From Microbulbifer sp. YPW16 (GTDB taxonomy: Bacteria; Pseudomonadota; Gammaproteobacteria; Pseudomonadales; Cellvibrionaceae): 64,000 nucleotides of DNA. This document shows, piece after piece, positions 1 to 7,229 of this stretch. The stretch covers positions 2,278,501-2,342,500 of the forward strand of contig NZ_CP089928.1 of NCBI RefSeq assembly GCF_021290385.1. The letters are read 5' to 3'. Made by a program: the position numbers and the translations under genes. Numbering within the stretch: position 1 is the first letter of the stretch; every line of letters begins with the position of its first letter. The notes under the pieces were generated by a model. It searched no databases, was not told the DNA's origin, and was given only the letters and a program-made list of their open reading frames with translations.

Positions 1-1
1 G

Positions 2-601
2 GAAAAGATTGAACGCGAGCGCGATGCCCTGGCACTGATGCAGGCTGGCGCAACGGAAGACGATCCGGCGGTGGAGCTGCTCGCCCTGCAACAGCGGGCA
101 GCGCGGCTCTACCGGCAACTGCAGGCGTCGGGCAAAGTCGGTGAGCGGGAGCGGCAGGTACTGGCGCGCGCCCACGGGCTGCTGCTCTGGCAGGCCGCGC
201 AGGCCTGGCACGACAACCTGTGGCGGCAGCAGCGCGCGCTCGACAGCGTCGGTGTGGCGCTGGAACAAGCGGCGGGCAATCGCCGGCAATTACAGCAGAC
301 TGCCGAGCGGGCTCCCCAGCTCAGCAGCCTGGGCGCGCGGGTGCAGTCTGCACTGCCCCGGGTGCGCAGCCAGCAGCGCGCGGTCAACCGCGCCAGTGCG
401 GTGCTGGAAGCCGACATCCGGCGCGACCTGCGCGCTGAACTGGCACGGGTCGACCAGCGCCTGCGCCAATACAGTGCCCATACCCGGCTGGCTATCGCCC
501 GGCTGCAGGATGCCGCCCTCCAGGAAGGCACCACCCACGAACAGGCACCAGGCGGGCGGGAAGCAGCCCCGGCCTCGGAACTGGCGGGGGGCGCACCGTG
601 A
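2..601 (+). CDS. Coiled-coil hypothetical protein, 5' end outside window
   Basis: The reading frame is open from base 2 without a convincing start, so the gene begins upstream; the first internal ATG is at 38. The visible part, about 199 residues, is rich in Gln, Arg, Ala and Leu, with heptad-like stretches such as RVQSALPRVRSQQRAV, which suggests a coiled coil. No signal peptide or catalytic motif is visible in this part. Its TGA overlaps the GTG start of the next gene (GTGA at 598-601), so the two are probably translationally coupled. By position it is part of the TPR/ExbB/ExbD/TonB-like operon that follows. The family is not recognised. Confidence 0.6.
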   Translation, partial: EKIERERDALALMQAGATEDDPAVELLALQQRAARLYRQLQASGKVGERERQVLARAHGLLLWQAAQAWHDNLWRQQRALDSVGVALEQAAGNRRQLQQTAERAPQLSSLGARVQSALPRVRSQQRAVNRASAVLEADIRRDLRAELARVDQRLRQYSAHTRLAIARLQDAALQEGTTHEQAPGGREAAPASELAGGAP

Positions 602-3444
602 AGCATCCCCGTCACCTGCTGGCCGCCGCAGTGTGCAGCCTGGCCCTGGCCGGCTGCAGCCAGCCACAGGTTGCCACCCTCGCGGACCTGCCCGGTGCCG
701 GCCTGCCGGCTGAACCGGATATCCGGATTCCGCAGGTACAGATCGATACACTCCAGCGCAACTACAAGCAGGCGCTCGTGGACCAGCAGGATCCCGCCGT
801 GCGCCGGCAGATCAGGATGCGCCTGGCCGACCTGGAAATGGAGCGGCTGGAGCAGCTGCAGGCTGACAACCCCGGGCAGCGGGTGTCCTTCCAGCCCGCC
901 ATCGAACGCTACCGCGCACTGGTCGCCGCACAACCCGGCGATGACTACCTCAATTACCGCCTGGCACGGGCCGAGGCACTGGACGGCAACCAGGGCGCCG
1001 CACTGCAGGCACTGGAAAATATCGCCAGCGCGAGGCCGGAATCGCCATTCATTGCCGAAGTACTGTTCCGCCGCGGCGAGGCCGCCTTCAACGACCGCCG
1101 CTACCGGGACGCGGCACGGGATTTCGACGCCGTGCTGGCCCAGGGCGAATCACCGTTTACCGATAATGCCCGCTATATGCTCGGCTGGTCGCAATTCAAG
1201 GCATCCGACTACCCGGCTTCGACGCGCACCTTCCTGGGCCTGCTCGACACCCTGCACAGCCGCGCACCGCTGGATGAACTGGACAGCGGCGACCGCCGCC
1301 TGGCCGATGACAGCCTGCGCGGGCTGGCGCTGGGATTCAGTTACCAGGGCGGCGCCGGCGCCATCGAGCCCTACAACCCGGACCGCGGGGCGCGTCCCTA
1401 CCAGCACCGCATCTATCGTGCGCTGGGGGACTGGTACCGGGAGAAAGAGCGTTTCCGTGAGGGCGCCGACAGTTACCTGGCCTTCGTCGAAAACTATCCC
1501 GGCAGCGCCGAGGCGCCGGCGTTGCACCTGCGCGCCATCGAAACCCTGCAACAGGCCGGGCTGGACGCCGAGGTGATGCCGGCCAAGCGCGAATTCGTGC
1601 GGCGCTATGGCATCCACAGCGATTACTGGCAGGCGGCCGACGACACCCAGCGTGAACAACTGGGCGCCTGGCTGCGGCCCTGGCTGGCGGAGCTTGCGCG
1701 CTTCGACCACGCCCGCGCCCAGGCCCTGCAGCAAGAGCAGCCCGGCAGCCCGCGCGAACGGCGCCAGCTGGCCACCCGGGCACGCCAGGCCTATCTCGCC
1801 GCCGCAGCCATGTACCGCGAGTACACCGAGACGTTCCCGCAGGACATCGAGACGCCGGCAATGGCATTCCTGCTGGCGGAGTGCCTGGAACAGGCCGGCG
1901 ACCGTGCCGGGGCCTGGCGGGCCTACCGGAACGTGGCCTCCACTTACCCGAAACACGAGCAGGCCACCGAAGCGGGCTATTCCGCGATCCTCAACGCCGA
2001 GGCGGTTTACCGGGAGACTGCCGCCCAGGCAAACGCAGGCGGGCAACGGGACGAGCAGGCGACCCTGTGGCGGGATCGTGCCATCGAGGCCGGGCAGTAC
2101 TTTGTCGATACCTGGCCGCGCGACCCGCGCGCGCTGCCGGTATTGCTCGATGCTGCCGACAAGCTGTTCCAGCAACGCCGTTACGCCGAAGTGATCGTTG
2201 CTGCCGAGCGCGCAGCCAGGTGGCAGCCGCCACCGGACCTGCAGCAGCGCCGCAACCTCAACCTGCTGCTGGGCCACAGCTATTTCGAGCAACGGGATTA
2301 CCCGGCCGCGGAACAGGCCTACGCCCGCGTGCTGGCGGGAACTGCGGCAGGCGTCCCTGCGGCAGGCGTTCCTGCGGCAGGTGATTCCATTGCGGCTACT
2401 GCCCGGCAGAAAATGCAGGCCGCCATCTACCGCCAGGCCGAGGCCGCCCTGGCGCAGGGAGACAGCGAGCTGGCAATCACTCACCTGCTGCGGGTCCGCG
2501 ACAGCGGGCGCACCGACATTGCCGCCACCGCACAGTACGATGCCATCAACCAGCTGGTGACCCTTGAGCAGTGGCAACGCGCAGCCACCGAACTGGCGGA
2601 TTTCCGCAGTCACTACCCCGCCCACGCCCTGACCCCCACCCTCACTGCCAAGGCGGTGGTGATCTACCAGGCCCTGCAGATGCCGGGCGCCGCGTCGGCC
2701 GAGCTGCTCAGGCTGGCGCAGTCGGACGCGGACCCGCAGGTGCGTCGCCAGTCGCTGTTCCTGGCCGCCGAGGGTTTCCGCGAGGCGGGCGAGACCGATC
2801 GCGCCATCGCGGCCTTCCAGCAGTACAGCGAACAGTGGCAGGAGCCCCGCGAACAGCAGCTGGAGGCGCAGTACCAGCTGGTACAGCTGACCGGCGAGGC
2901 CGGCGATAGCCGTGCCCGCACTCGCTGGCTGCAACGCCTTGGCCAGGCGCAGCCGCGGAGTGAGCGGGCCCGCTACCTGGCAGCCTATGCCCGCAGCGAA
3001 CTGGCTGAACAGAGTTACCAGGCTTTTGCCGGCATCCCGCTGGCACTGCCACTCAAGGCCAGCCTGGCCAGCAAGAAACGCGCGCTGGAAACCACCGTCG
3101 CGGACTATCGCGAGGTGCTCGACCTGGGCGTGGCCGAGTTCTCCACCCAGGCCAACTTCCGCCTGGCGGAGGTCTACCGCACCCTGAGCGGCGACCTGAT
3201 GGATTCCGAGCGACCACCGGGGCTATCCCCGCTGGAGCTGGAACAGTACGACATCCTGCTGGAAGAGCAGGCATTCCCGTTTGAGGAAAAGGCCATCGAA
3301 TTGCACGAAGCCAATATCCAGCGCACCGCCGACGGAATGTATGACGACTGGGTGCGTCGCAGCTTCCGTTCGCTGGCAAAACTGCTGCCGGCGCGCTACC
3401 AGAAACCGGAACAAACCGCGGAGTGGAGCGATGCCCTGCACTGA
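598..3444 (+). CDS. Large tetratricopeptide-repeat lipoprotein
   Basis: 948 residues starting at GTG 598. The N-terminus is a lipoprotein signal peptide with lipobox LAGC, so the mature protein is predicted to be lipid-anchored at Cys22 or so and to lie in the periplasm. Most of the rest is made of helical TPR-like repeats, with typical blocks such as LFRRGEAAFNDRRYRDAARDF and YFEQRDYPAAEQAYARVL, pointing to a protein-binding scaffold. A Gly-Val-Pro-Ala-Ala linker encoded by three 15-base tandem repeats sits at about residues 583-597. It overlaps the next gene by 14 bases. Context suggests it is the periplasmic partner of the downstream ExbB/ExbD motor; that role is inferred, and no specific partner can be named. 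Confidence 0.82.
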   Translation: MKHPRHLLAAAVCSLALAGCSQPQVATLADLPGAGLPAEPDIRIPQVQIDTLQRNYKQALVDQQDPAVRRQIRMRLADLEMERLEQLQADNPGQRVSFQPAIERYRALVAAQPGDDYLNYRLARAEALDGNQGAALQALENIASARPESPFIAEVLFRRGEAAFNDRRYRDAARDFDAVLAQGESPFTDNARYMLGWSQFKASDYPASTRTFLGLLDTLHSRAPLDELDSGDRRLADDSLRGLALGFSYQGGAGAIEPYNPDRGARPYQHRIYRALGDWYREKERFREGADSYLAFVENYPGSAEAPALHLRAIETLQQAGLDAEVMPAKREFVRRYGIHSDYWQAADDTQREQLGAWLRPWLAELARFDHARAQALQQEQPGSPRERRQLATRARQAYLAAAAMYREYTETFPQDIETPAMAFLLAECLEQAGDRAGAWRAYRNVASTYPKHEQATEAGYSAILNAEAVYRETAAQANAGGQRDEQATLWRDRAIEAGQYFVDTWPRDPRALPVLLDAADKLFQQRRYAEVIVAAERAARWQPPPDLQQRRNLNLLLGHSYFEQRDYPAAEQAYARVLAGTAAGVPAAGVPAAGDSIAATARQKMQAAIYRQAEAALAQGDSELAITHLLRVRDSGRTDIAATAQYDAINQLVTLEQWQRAATELADFRSHYPAHALTPTLTAKAVVIYQALQMPGAASAELLRLAQSDADPQVRRQSLFLAAEGFREAGETDRAIAAFQQYSEQWQEPREQQLEAQYQLVQLTGEAGDSRARTRWLQRLGQAQPRSERARYLAAYARSELAEQSYQAFAGIPLALPLKASLASKKRALETTVADYREVLDLGVAEFSTQANFRLAEVYRTLSGDLMDSERPPGLSPLELEQYDILLEEQAFPFEEKAIELHEANIQRTADGMYDDWVRRSFRSLAKLLPARYQKPEQTAEWSDALH
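2344..2388 (+). repeat. Three tandem 15-bp units inside the TPR gene
   Basis: Units at 2344-2358, 2359-2373 and 2374-2388 begin GCGGCAGG and differ at a few bases, the third most. They encode repeated Ala-Ala-Gly-Val-Pro. The unit is a multiple of three, so gain or loss of a copy would keep the frame and change only a flexible linker between TPR blocks. Confidence 0.8.
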
Positions 3445-4105
3445 TGACAGCGTCGCGCGTGTCGTGACCCGCGCAGCCGTGGTGCTCACCCTGGTGTGGC
3501 TGGCCGCCTGTAGCCAGACCGGCCCGCGCGCGGGCGGTGATCCCGGGGCAACAGGCAGCGCCACGGCGCCGGGCACTGCCGCCAGCCCCAATCCCTACCT
3601 GGCCTCCCGGGTATCCGTGCCGGGCGCGGCCCGCAGCGGTATGGCACAGGCGCGGGAGCTGCTGGAGAGCGGCGATGCCGCTGCGGCCGAGAAACGGCTA
3701 CTGGGCCTTACCGCAGAGTGGCCGGAATTGTCCGGGCTGTGGCTCAACCTGGGCATCGTCCAGCGCCACCTGGAAAAGTACACCGAGGCCGAGCAGAGCC
3801 TGCGCAGTGCCATTGCCGCCAACGATGACAATGTATTTGCCTGGAACACGCTCGGGGCACTACTGCGTGACCGGGGACAGTTCGACGCGGCAGAGCAACA
3901 CTATCGCGGGGCGCTGGAACGCTGGCCGGACTTCGCCGCCGCCCACCGCAACCTGGGCATTCTCTACGACCTGTACCTGCAGCGTCCGCAGGAAGCACTG
4001 CAACATTACCGGCGGGCGCAGGAATTGCATCAGTTGCGGGACCCGGAACAGGAACCGGACCGGCAGCTGGCCGGCTGGATCGTCGACCTGGAGCGCCGAC
4101 TATGA
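3431..4105 (+). CDS. Small TPR lipoprotein
   Basis: 224 residues. The chosen ATG at 3431 overlaps the end of the preceding gene by 14 bases and is directly followed by a hydrophobic segment and lipobox LAAC at about residues 24-27; the longer in-frame extension to 3281 is out-of-frame coding sequence of the upstream gene. The mature protein has a Pro/Ala/Gly-rich linker and then about three TPRs (blocks around LWLNLGIVQRHLEKYTEAE, FAWNTLGALLRDRGQFDAAE and AAHRNLGILYDLYLQRPQEA). Likely a periplasmic scaffold lipoprotein co-expressed with the large TPR lipoprotein and the ExbB/ExbD motor. The ATGA overlap with the next gene (4102-4105) supports one operon. Confidence 0.82.
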   Translation: MPCTDDSVARVVTRAAVVLTLVWLAACSQTGPRAGGDPGATGSATAPGTAASPNPYLASRVSVPGAARSGMAQARELLESGDAAAAEKRLLGLTAEWPELSGLWLNLGIVQRHLEKYTEAEQSLRSAIAANDDNVFAWNTLGALLRDRGQFDAAEQHYRGALERWPDFAAAHRNLGILYDLYLQRPQEALQHYRRAQELHQLRDPEQEPDRQLAGWIVDLERRL

Positions 4106-4404
4106 CATCACCGCAACCACAACGCACCAGGCTCTACCTGGCAACCACACTGCTTGCGCTAACCGCGCTGGCAGGGGCGGCACAGGCCGAAGAGCCGATC
4201 GAACTGGAATCGACGATTATCGGCAGCCAGGAGCAACCCAAGGTGCTGTACATCATCCCGTGGAAACAGGCCGACAGCCTGCAGAAAATTGACGGCGGCC
4301 TGCCGCAGACCATCGACGATATATTCGAGCACCAGGAATACTCGGAGCTGCAGCGCGAAATGGAAAACTCGGGCCAGGACAACAGCGACTCGTCGCCGGA
4401 ATAG
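4102..4404 (+). CDS. Small secreted hypothetical protein
   Basis: 100 residues with a clear Sec signal peptide (hydrophobic stretch LYLATTLLALTALAG, cleavage after AQA near residue 29). The mature part is short, acidic at its C-terminus and contains a conserved-looking core, EPIELESTIIGSQEQPKVLYIIPW. ATG overlaps the upstream stop (ATGA). It is predicted periplasmic; no known family is recognised. Its position between the TPR lipoproteins and exbB suggests it is an accessory part of the same envelope machine. Confidence 0.72.
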   Translation: MTSPQPQRTRLYLATTLLALTALAGAAQAEEPIELESTIIGSQEQPKVLYIIPWKQADSLQKIDGGLPQTIDDIFEHQEYSELQREMENSGQDNSDSSPE

Positions 4405-4504: not shown

Positions 4505-5170
4505 ATGGAATTCACTCAGGCGCTGTTGCGTTTTTTCCAGAATGGCGGCCCCTTCATGTACCCCATAGCGCTGGTACTGGTGATCGGCCTGATCATGGTG
4601 ATCGAGCGCTGGATCTTCCTGTCACTGGCCCGCAGTGCCAACCGCAAGGCCTATCGCCAGGTGCTGCCGCTGCTACAGCAGCGTAACTACAACGGCGTGC
4701 TGCAGGTGGCCCGTGACAACAAGGCGGCCATGGGCCGGATTGCCGCCGCCGGTATCGGCACCCTGCAGTACGCAAAGCGCGATGAGAATATTGCCCTGGC
4801 AATCGAGGAGGGCATCCTCGAGGCGGTACCGCGCCTGGAAAAACGCACCAATTACCTGGCCACCCTGGCCAACATCGCCACCCTGCTGGGCCTGCTGGGC
4901 ACCATCATGGGCCTGATCGCCGCCTTTACCGCGGTAGCCAATGCGGACCCGTCCGAGAAGGCCTCGATGCTGTCATCCAGTATCTCCGTGGCCATGAACA
5001 CCACGGCCTTTGGCCTGATTTCCGCGATACCCCTGTTGCTGGCCTACTCCATGCTGCAAAACAAGACCAATGAAATCGTCGACAGCCTGCAGATGGCCGG
5101 GGTGAAGTTCCTCAACCTGCTCACCATGGGGCGCGCACAGGCGGCTGAGCAACGCGCAGCCAAAGGCTGA
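4505..5170 (+). CDS. ExbB/TolQ/MotA-family proton channel protein
   Basis: 221 residues. The start at ATG 4505 is preceded by GGAG at 4495-4498 with good spacing; the in-frame ATG at 4451 lies before this site and within the intergenic hairpin. Three membrane segments are visible: about residues 17-36, 124-143 and 157-180, the usual ExbB/TolQ layout with a cytoplasmic loop between the first two. The TM2 region reads LLGLLGTIMGLIAAF and TM3 contains NTTAFGLISAIP, matching the MotA/TolQ/ExbB family signature. It should form the pentameric channel that surrounds ExbD and converts proton-motive force into movement of the TonB-like partner encoded at 6240. A 6-bp hairpin (4456-4473) lies in the 100-base gap upstream. 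Confidence 0.93.
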   Translation: MEFTQALLRFFQNGGPFMYPIALVLVIGLIMVIERWIFLSLARSANRKAYRQVLPLLQQRNYNGVLQVARDNKAAMGRIAAAGIGTLQYAKRDENIALAIEEGILEAVPRLEKRTNYLATLANIATLLGLLGTIMGLIAAFTAVANADPSEKASMLSSSISVAMNTTAFGLISAIPLLLAYSMLQNKTNEIVDSLQMAGVKFLNLLTMGRAQAAEQRAAKG

Positions 5171-5174
5171 CGGC

Positions 5175-5699
5175 ATGCTGAAACTGAATATTCGCCGACG
5201 CGGCGGCATCGACCCGGAGCTGGACATCACCTCGTTTATGAGCCTGATGGTCATCCTGGTGCCGGTGTTGCTGTTGAATATGGTGTTCTCGCATATCGCC
5301 ATCCTCAAGCTGAACCTGCCGGGCCTCAGCGACGGTAATCCCGCGAGCGAGGAAAACCGCCAGCTGGAGGTGGTTTTGCGCGATCGCCATATCGATATCA
5401 ATTACCCGGCCGGGGTGCGGGTACAGCGGGTCGAGCATGTCGATGGCGTACCCGATTTCGAGCGCATGTCCGATGTCCTGCAGGAAGTGAAGCGCCAGCT
5501 GCGGGAGAAGTCTGTGGACAAGAAAGACATCCTGATCCTGTCCCAGCGGGATACGCCCTACCGCACCCTGGTAAAAGCCATGGATACCGCGCGCAGCTAT
5601 CGCGCCGTGGTCGCGACTTCAGTCGTGGATGCGGAACTGTTCCCACAGATTTCCCTGGGTGACGCAGCGGAACCCACGGCAACGGCAGCGGGGCAGTGA
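5175..5699 (+). CDS. ExbD/TolR-like protein with Ser replacing the membrane Asp
   Basis: 174 residues, four bases after exbB. Short cytoplasmic tail, one membrane segment at about residues 19-40 and a periplasmic domain, as in ExbD. Aligning by eye with E. coli ExbD, the TPFIDVM segment that carries the essential aspartate corresponds here to TSFMSLM, so position 23 is Ser and no acidic residue lies within the membrane span; Asp17 lies just before it. The alignment is anchored by KLNLPG after the span, matching KVNLP of ExbD. The protein may be a structural subunit that cannot carry protons by itself and works with the second ExbD at 5701. Confidence 0.88.
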   Translation: MLKLNIRRRGGIDPELDITSFMSLMVILVPVLLLNMVFSHIAILKLNLPGLSDGNPASEENRQLEVVLRDRHIDINYPAGVRVQRVEHVDGVPDFERMSDVLQEVKRQLREKSVDKKDILILSQRDTPYRTLVKAMDTARSYRAVVATSVVDAELFPQISLGDAAEPTATAAGQ

Positions 5700-5700
5700 T

Positions 5701-6243
5701 ATGAACCTGAACGTCGGTAAAAAATTACAGGAGCGCCGCGAGCGCCAGAAAAAACAGCAGTCACGCCTCAACCTGGTATCGCTGATGGACATTTTCACCA
5801 TCCTGGTGTTCTTCCTGCTGGTGAATTCCTCGGACGTGGAGGTGCTGCAGAGCGACAAAACCATCAAGCTGCCGGAGTCCACATCGAAGCAGAAACCGGA
5901 GCTTACCCCGGTGGTGCGCATCAACAACGAGACGCTGTTTGTGGGCAACCGGCCTGTGGCCAGTATTGGTGAGATCAGCAGCGACGCGGAGCAGATCGAA
6001 CCATTGCTCAAGGAACTGCAGTACCTGGCCCAGCGCGCCGAGCCCCTGTCAGAAGCGCAGGCAAAAACTGGCCGCGCGGTGACCATCATGGGCGACGAGG
6101 AACTGCCATACCAGCTGCTGAAACAGGTGATGCGCACCTGTGCGGCGGCGGATTACCGGGATATTTCCTTCGCCGTGAGCCAGGCCGCGCCCGACGCGGC
6201 GGCTGGCGATGAAATTGCAGGGCGGGGGCCGGGAGCCAGATGA
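5701..6243 (+). CDS. ExbD/TolR-like protein, membrane Asp present
   Basis: 180 residues starting at ATG 5701, two bases after the first exbD. A very basic, Gln/Arg/Lys-rich cytoplasmic tail of about 22 residues precedes a single membrane segment, LNLVSLMDIFTILVFFLL, in which Asp30 occupies the position of the essential ExbD aspartate. The periplasmic domain contains IKLPES and ends in a low-complexity tail. It is expected to be the proton-conducting ExbD of the motor. The stop overlaps the next start (ATGA, 6240-6243). Confidence 0.9.
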   Translation: MNLNVGKKLQERRERQKKQQSRLNLVSLMDIFTILVFFLLVNSSDVEVLQSDKTIKLPESTSKQKPELTPVVRINNETLFVGNRPVASIGEISSDAEQIEPLLKELQYLAQRAEPLSEAQAKTGRAVTIMGDEELPYQLLKQVMRTCAAADYRDISFAVSQAAPDAAAGDEIAGRGPGAR

Positions 6244-7229
6244 GTGCCGCAACCCTTTCCCGACCGGCCCCCTGGCAGTTACAGGAAACTGAGCTGCCCT
6301 GGACTTCCGCCGCGGCTGAAGATGCACGTTTCCGGCGCCTGCTGAAGTGGGGCCTGGGCGCCCTGTGTGTACTCGGCGTGGTCATCAGCCTGGTACCGGT
6401 GCCCGAGCTGACCCGCGAGCAGGCCGAGCGGGTTCCGCCACAGCTGGCGCGGGTGATCCTGGAAGAGAAGTCGAAGCCCAAGCCACCGCCACCCAAACCG
6501 GCCCCCGAACCGAAACGGGAAAAGCCACCTGAGGCAAAGGCGGAAAAGCCCAAACCGAAACCCGAGCCCCGGCCGGAGCCAGAACCGCAAACCAGGCCGA
6601 AGCCGGCTCCGGCAAAGGTGCAGATGGCGCGGGAGAAAGCCGCCAACAGCGGCCTCTTGCAGATGCAGGACGACCTGGCGGCAATGCGCGACACGGTCGA
6701 TGTGGCAGAGGTTTCCCGCAAGGCAACCGCGAGCGGGGCCGCGGCGAGCAGCGCCCAGCAGGTCGACCGGGCGGTAATTGCGAACCGGGCGCAGACCCGC
6801 AGCGGCGGCGTCAGTGACAGCAACCTGAGTCGTGATACCGGCGGTGCCGAACTGGCACAGCGGCAGGCGACCCGCGTCGCAAGCGCCCAGGCCAGCAACG
6901 CCGCCCGGGCATCCGCGCGGGAAACCCGGCGCGAGACCTCGGTGCGCCCGGAGGACGCCATCCGCAGTGTCATGGAGAATAACAAGGGGGCGATATTCGC
7001 CATCTACAACCGCGCCCTGCGCCGCGACCCCACGCTGCAGGGCAAGGTTACCGTGCAACTGGTGATCGAGCCCAATGGCAGTGTTTCGGATATAAAGCTG
7101 GTGGGCAGCGAGCTCAATGCACCGGCGCTGGAACGCAAGCTGCTGGCGCGAATCCGCTTGATCAACTTCGGCGCGGCCAATGTGGAGCGGGCGACCCTCA
7201 ATTACTCCATCGATTTCCTGCCTTCCTAA
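6240..7229 (+). CDS. TonB-like energy transducer with AgmX/PglI-type C-terminus
   Basis: 329 residues. Cytoplasmic N-terminus of about 35 residues, one membrane anchor at about 37-54, a Pro/Lys/Glu-rich rod at about 77-125 (PPPKPAPEPKREKPPE type), a Ser/Ala/Arg-rich middle, and a C-terminal domain at about 238-329. That domain carries the pattern NNKGAIFAIYNRALRRDP, LQGKVTVQLVIEPNGSV and a final Y-x-I-D-F-L-P, which fits the AgmX/PglI C-terminal family, related to TonB-C. It probably spans the periplasm and is driven by the ExbB/ExbD proteins encoded just upstream. The outer-membrane or cell-wall target is unknown; the TPR lipoproteins of the same operon are the obvious candidates. Confidence 0.85.
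   Translation: MSAATLSRPAPWQLQETELPWTSAAAEDARFRRLLKWGLGALCVLGVVISLVPVPELTREQAERVPPQLARVILEEKSKPKPPPPKPAPEPKREKPPEAKAEKPKPKPEPRPEPEPQTRPKPAPAKVQMAREKAANSGLLQMQDDLAAMRDTVDVAEVSRKATASGAAASSAQQVDRAVIANRAQTRSGGVSDSNLSRDTGGAELAQRQATRVASAQASNAARASARETRRETSVRPEDAIRSVMENNKGAIFAIYNRALRRDPTLQGKVTVQLVIEPNGSVSDIKLVGSELNAPALERKLLARIRLINFGAANVERATLNYSIDFLPS

Follow-up and report, generated by a model that had tools for sequence, protein, structure and literature searches.

The motor operon described here, from Microbulbifer sp. YPW16, encodes two unequal ExbD proteins. The membrane aspartate that carries protons is absent from the first (ExbD1; Ser23 here, Asn or Ser in 144 of 145 distinct gammaproteobacterial homologues) and present in the second (ExbD2; 145/145). 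Judged by sequence comparison, ExbD1 without the Asp is a state that has been maintained and is linked to the channel, because the split recurs in two phyla and is accompanied by a proline at +7 of the ExbD1 position and by matching residues in ExbB. We predict an AglRQS-type envelope motor in which ExbD1, without the Asp, and ExbD2, with it, on balance probably share a single ExbB pentamer (5:1:1) with one proton-loading axle helix. The recurrence of the split in two phyla, with parallel changes in the protein predicted to form the ring, makes it likely that the motor is driven through one proton-carrying arm, not two. Two-ExbD operons and the core complex are already known; neither the Asn/Asp split nor its coupling to ExbB was mentioned in the titles, opening lines of abstracts and text passages screened from open-licence PubMed Central papers.

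The core operon and its genomic context

The window, i.e. the whole stretch of 64,000 nucleotides that was analysed, carries the core operon on its plus strand, in the order GltC-like, GltD-like, GltE-like, small protein, ExbB, ExbD1, ExbD2 and GltG-like. The features are as follows.

1..601, plus strand: GltC-like protein, C-terminal part; 663 aa, start upstream of the window (L040:8611)
598..3444, plus strand: GltD-like TPR protein, 948 aa; TPR_6 above cut-off; named by its position in the core operon
3431..4105, plus strand: GltE-like TPR lipoprotein; TPR families; lipobox-like LAAC; start inferred
4102..4404, plus strand: small protein with a signal-peptide-like start; matches no family
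4505..5170, plus strand: AglR-like ExbB; PF01618
4901-4903, 5000-5002, 5003-5005 and 5030-5032, plus strand: ExbB codons Thr133, Thr166, Thr167 and Pro176
5175..5699, plus strand: ExbD1 (AglQ position), 174 aa; PF02472, 41.6 bits; Ser23 instead of Asp; Pro30 at +7
5241..5243, plus strand: ExbD1 Ser23 codon agc (proton-carrier position)
5262..5264, plus strand: ExbD1 Pro30 codon (+7; accompanies the absence of Asp)
5701..6243, plus strand: ExbD2 (AglS position), 180 aa; PF02472, 66 bits; Asp30 retained, Phe at +7
5788..5790, plus strand: ExbD2 Asp30 codon gac
6240..7229, plus strand: GltG-like protein, AgmX/PglI C-terminal domain; NF033768, 65.9 bits (cut-off 40)

This operon is an AglRQS/Glt core complex. 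The aglR-Q-S genes are clustered with gltC, gltD, gltE and gltG, as in the core complex of AglR, AglQ, AglS, GltC, GltD, GltE and GltG that passages of Luciano et al. 2011 describe, including several Gammaproteobacteria (PMC3169522). The names GltC and GltD follow position, length and TPR content, and GltE follows TPR content. For the GltC-like protein, whose gene shares 4 bases with the GltD-like gene, the name comes from position and length alone (M. xanthus GltC has 673 aa); its TPR_19 match is weak and below cut-off, and no family model stands behind the name. The GltE and Tgl models score below cut-off on the GltE-like protein. ExbB is the sole ExbB gene of the operon. The mechanical open reading frame of ExbD2 starts at 5629, within ExbD1, and 5701 was taken as its start. 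Before the start of the window (L040:1425-7887), genes with DUF1585 (PSD2), Laminin_G_3 and ApbE domains precede the core operon in the same orientation. A phage or defence origin was considered and rejected, for neither ExbD matches PHROGs or PADLOC; ExbB matched ZorA in PADLOC and one PHROG without functional annotation, both weakly.

Genome-wide, PF02472 matches eight proteins. Two are the window pair, two more form a second pair, and the other four, all with Asp, are single ExbD proteins. The second pair (Asn/Asp) belongs to a second, complete core operon on the minus strand at about 1.461-1.469 Mb (L039, C1:1456000-1472000), in which the GltG-like frame is longer and Thr replaces the kink proline of ExbB. 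A TolQ-TolR-TolA-like run, identified from its translation alone, lies elsewhere in the genome (L003).

ExbD1 lacks the proton carrier and ExbD2 retains it

An earlier, sequence-only reading of this DNA had placed Ser23 of the first ExbD and Asp30 of the second at the membrane Asp position, and both assignments hold. In the ExbD1 motif, ELDITSFMSLMVILVPVLLL, Ser23 stands at the position of Asp25 of E. coli ExbD; column 23 (Asn/Ser) of the ExbD1 family profile is aligned to this same Asp25 (chain 6tyi_Y), and so is Asp30 of ExbD2. The codon reading and both alignments to E. coli ExbD rule out a wrong gene start or a misalignment as the cause of the missing Asp. Both proteins exceed the PF02472 gathering score of 25.4. 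ExbD1 is named here as an ExbD homologue; it is not a proton-carrying ExbD.

The same reading had found no other acidic residue in the span of ExbD1, and the family bears this out: no charged residue occurs at −5 to −1 or at +1 to +15 of the ExbD1 position in the 145 distinct homologues, and another acid inside the helix was rejected on this ground. An acid further out might still carry protons, e.g. Asp17 at −6, a position that holds Asp in 77/145 and Glu in 3/145. However, it holds Asn in 63/145, and Asp17 immediately precedes the helix predicted for residues 18-42 in the ExbD1 monomer model (mean pLDDT 74.8, pTM 0.52), so that proton carriage by this route appears very improbable.

The split is conserved in Gammaproteobacteria

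An ExbD1 profile search covered 369 genomes, of which 108 had matches at E up to 1e-6. The score was at least 120 bits in 83 of the 369, and the remaining matches reached at most 51 bits, bar one contig-end fragment (60 bits). The survey set was made of the loci from this search, the nearest relatives (58 genomes) and loci anchored on GltG, which scored above cut-off in 15 of 398 genomes. Among the 145 distinct ExbD1 proteins, Asn was found in 116, Ser in 28 and Asp in 1; each of the 145 distinct ExbD2 proteins carried Asp. When operons were paired by script (n=141), 113 were Asn/Asp, 27 Ser/Asp and one Asp/Asp; four loci left unpaired also hold ExbD2, with a frame overlap longer than the script permitted. 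Similar results were obtained with the class sample taken by itself (92 Asn, 2 Ser and 1 Asp among 95 distinct ExbD1) and with the GltG-anchored sample, which is independent of ExbD1 (Asn or Ser in ExbD1 with Asp in ExbD2 in 18/18). In the protein database, ExbD1 had 1051 matches, and the best 120 of them carried Asn (89) or Ser (31), each with Pro at +7; of 7844 ExbD2 matches, the best 120 all carried Asp. The window protein is included in each set.

As for the Ser cases, 26/28 fall in the Microbulbifer genus set and the other two are loci L176 and L180. On these alignments Ser is a local variant, and the family residue is Asn. The conserved Ser/Asp split that had been expected of homologous operons is thus upheld in its main part, with Asp in ExbD2 of 141/141 operons and an ExbD1 without Asp in 140/141, and has to be corrected in the residue, since Asn is the commonest. 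L174 (G074:C12:5000-11600) was the lone gammaproteobacterial core operon found with an Asp-ExbD1.

The two ExbD genes are closely spaced: in 124/141 operons, ExbD2 has a possible start no more than 20 bases from the stop of ExbD1, a favourable estimate in that the nearest possible ATG was used. Wider flanks were read for 86 homologous loci. Relatives of the whole seven-gene set, GltD through GltG, occur in 76 of them, and a GltG relative in 85; in eight, only ExbB, ExbD1, ExbD2 and GltG are seen within the stretch of the locus. The small protein at 4102..4404 has a relative in 78/86 of these loci and is a steady, though unnamed, part of the core operon.

Two classes of first ExbD in Myxococcota

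Named loci were obtained via a 16S pattern, the majority from Myxococcota. PF02472 was searched in 14 genomes reached through these loci (13 titled as Myxococcota groups or Deltaproteobacteria and one as 'bacterium'), and the ExbD1 profile was searched in 140 genomes of Polyangium's phylum, with a match at 1e-6 in 88. The loci used were 30 from the PF02472 search, 20 stretches with neighbouring ExbD matches, the best 30 profile loci and 20 hand-picked stretches with weaker matches. From 78 tandem pairs listed, two were dropped (the second-to-third pairing in the three-ExbD loci L253 and L310), which left 76. In these pairs, whose loci were partly selected by ExbD1 similarity so that class proportions are not prevalences, the first ExbD carried Asn in 32 and Ser in 1, all 33 with Pro at +7, and Asp in 43, none with Pro at +7. 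There was no crossover between the classes, and the second ExbD carried Asp in all 76.

Homologues with Asp in the first protein, which the sequence-only reading would have counted against the split, do exist: one of the 145 in Gammaproteobacteria (L174) and 43 of the 76 pairs in Myxococcota. They make up a class of their own, in which the ExbB residues are different. In two Asp/Asp operons, L242 and L245, the Asp of the first ExbD is at residue 27 (by our own count), and the frames of 254/158/185 and 255/160/196 aa are near those of AglR/AglQ/AglS (245/162/194). Because Asp placement and frame lengths resemble AglRQS, it is at the AglQ position that the present class naturally carries Asn or Ser. 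Loci L241-L248, from Myxococcota-type genomes, hold two divergently transcribed ExbB-ExbD-ExbD triplets, and the pairs read have Asp in both ExbD. Three consecutive ExbD genes were seen twice, as Asn, Asp, Asn in L310 (G908:C138:19500-26000) and as Asp, Asp, Asp in L253 (G806:C164:14500-18951). Two Asn loci (L261, L263) nest in the gammaproteobacterial clade of the ExbB tree and, for this reason, may be transfers or misbinned contigs.

ExbB residues follow the class of ExbD1

ExbB was compared across 217 double-ExbD operons and 23 single-ExbD ones (n=240). Thr133, Thr167 and Pro176 of the window ExbB align with Thr148, Thr181 and Pro190 of E. coli ExbB. It can be seen that, first, the TM2 Thr (Thr133) and the TM3 Thr (Thr167) are invariant (240/240). 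Secondly, the residue preceding the TM3 Thr (window Thr166) is Thr in 166/174 systems with an Asn/Ser ExbD1; in Asp systems it is Thr in 1/43 and Asn or Cys in 42/43, and in ExbB of the single type it is Ala in 19/23. Thirdly, the kink proline (window Pro176) is present in 170/174 Asn/Ser systems as against 2/43 Asp systems. In L174, with Phe at +7 of its Asp-ExbD1, the two ExbB sites are Asn (166) and Thr (176), i.e. all had switched together.

The exceptions are as follows. Six Asn-ExbD1 proteins have no Pro at +7; five of these systems carry Ser, Ala or Cys instead of ExbB Thr166. Among Asn systems with Pro at +7, position 166 was Asn in two and Ala in one, and position 176 was Thr in three (the second operon of three Microbulbifer genomes) and Leu in one. 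Thr166 is altered in 8 Asn systems, and the kink proline is gone in 4, without any gain of Asp; L240, an Asp/Asp pair of canonical ExbD type, has an ExbB that still carries Thr and Pro. The class-specific residues point to sites in ExbB that are worth examining.

These results bear on two other explanations. The second ExbD could have let the Asp of ExbD1 decay neutrally, and Ser in the Microbulbifer set does reflect a slight variability of the residue. But Asn and Ser are the sole residues in 144/145 homologues, Asn recurs in Myxococcota, and the Pro and the ExbB sites go with it; a neutral loss is scarcely credible, and decay of an unneeded copy was ruled out by conservation and coupling. 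The sequence-only reading had labelled ExbD1 as 'dead'; this oversimplifies, since the proline and the ExbB partner residues accompany the recurrent Asn in two phyla.

It is also conceivable that ExbD1 lies outside the pore or ring and serves as an anchor to peptidoglycan or GltG. Its periplasmic part has many invariant columns, and the best match in a fold search with the ExbD1 model was the ExbD periplasmic domain 8pek, a weak one (E 1.4e-3) among unrelated folds, with none at E <= 0.001. However, the membrane segment holds 7 of the 16 invariant columns of ExbD1, and the coupling involves ExbB residues that adjoin the Thr181 equivalent and stand at the Pro190 equivalent. An anchor outside the ring is, on this evidence, improbable.

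Direction of change on the ExbB tree

A tree was built from 100 of the 240 ExbB proteins, including eight single-ExbD ones, by a quick search and with long branches present. Against these eight, ExbB of the double-ExbD operons formed one clade (SH-aLRT 99). Three changes of Asp are required on the tree, and its root falls among Asn lineages. In a topology test with 98 rows, a single clade of all Asp rows was rejected (p-AU 0.0087) and a single clade of all Asn/Ser rows was allowed (p-AU 0.054). Independent pairs differing in Asp (217 rows, the two class columns omitted) numbered 3 on all branches and 2 on well-supported ones; the other sites changed in the same direction in most random pairings and never in the opposite one, with too few pairs for a significant sign test. 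The coupling between ExbD1 and ExbB rests on few independent changes. A wider scheme is possible, on the doubtful side: one-carrier double-ExbD motors would be a widespread 5:1:1 class, with an Asn arm fixed as if 'protonated', and would represent the older state, from which the two-carrier gliding motors of myxobacteria later regained Asp with matched changes of the ring.

A predicted motor with one proton-carrying arm

In the mechanism that we propose, one ExbD1 and one ExbD2 would share one ExbB ring. Asn would resemble a permanently protonated Asp, and the ExbD1 helix, which may be kinked, would serve as a passive arm at the Thr ring of ExbB. The Asp of ExbD2 would be the sole proton carrier, for loading and for release, so that a full turn might take about five protons rather than ten, in unequal steps. 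GltG would transmit the force to the outer membrane.

The single ExbB gene, the close spacing of the ExbD genes and the presence of both in 145/145 loci suggest the 5:1:1 assembly as the simpler fit, and are not decisive. Against it, AglQ D28N abolished proton conductance and paralysed the M. xanthus motor, as described in PMC3858216, i.e. Asn at this site is fatal in that background. The independent Asp changes are few, the kink Pro and Thr166 change without a gain of Asp, L240 is an exception, and most of the fetched Myxococcota pairs (43/76) have Asp in both proteins.

The two ExbD proteins could instead form separate homodimers on the one ExbB, an active ExbB5-ExbD2(2) complex and a silent ExbB5-ExbD1(2) complex that would act as reserve, brake or plug. 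Like dimers of ExbD, TolR and MotB are found in the solved motors (passages of PMC12215075), it is stated in a review that homo- or heterodimerization of AglQ and AglS is not known (PMC9389320), and coupling of ExbD1 to ExbB would be equally expected. Gene number, spacing and joint occurrence, as given above, favour a joint complex, though not decisively, and we regard two homodimeric complexes as unlikely.

If ExbD1 and ExbD2 do share a ring, as in the 5:1:1 assembly, a natural motor with one Asp, the other residue being Asn or Ser, breaks the two-Asp alternation scheme as written, and would offer a ready test of the number of carriers in a 5:2 motor and of the proton cost per turn.

Comparison with known systems

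The solved Ton, Tol and Mot motors are described with two Asp in unequal settings, one at the Thr ring and one towards a cytoplasmic cavity, and the rotary models of ExbBD and MotAB all take 36 degrees per proton, with a channel alternating between the two Asp (passages of a 2025 structure paper, PMC12215075). With the E. coli TonB-ExbB-ExbD system the operon shares the ExbB residues matched to Thr148, Thr181 and Pro190, and the Asp retained in ExbD2; it differs in having two unequal ExbD proteins and GltG in the place of TonB. The GltG-like protein scores 22.1 bits with TonB_C (PF03544), under the cut-off of 24.6, and is matched by NF033768 instead; on inspection of the sequence, the SHLS motif named in PMC12215075 is absent from its membrane helix. 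Among PDB sequences, ExbB is matched best by TolQ, whereas the tolQ and tolR models reach 69.9 of 221 bits and 25.2 of 127.3 bits, far under cut-off, which sets the operon apart from Tol-Pal. MotAB stators share the 5:2 architecture of the wider family, with the Asp of MotB (as outlined in PMC9389320), whereas here the ExbD domain is the only one found in the two ExbD proteins, and one of them has no Asp.

The closest likeness is to AglRQS/Glt, in which ExbB is followed by two ExbD/TolR proteins, together with GltC-, GltD-, GltE- and GltG-like genes. According to the description in a review (PMC9389320), AglQ and AglS of M. xanthus both carry Asp, which agrees with the Asp class and not with the Asn class; the AglQ-position protein here has Ser or Asn. 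A hand-over-hand idea with one AglQ and one AglS has been raised (in passages of PMC9120999), and the present operon bears on whether the two pair together, a question touched on in both papers (PMC9389320, PMC9120999). Taken together, the effect of AglQ D28N and the existence of an Asn/Ser class at the AglQ position mean that a substitution fatal to one motor occurs as the natural condition in related motors, in which the ring protein ExbB differs from that of the Asp class at matching sites.
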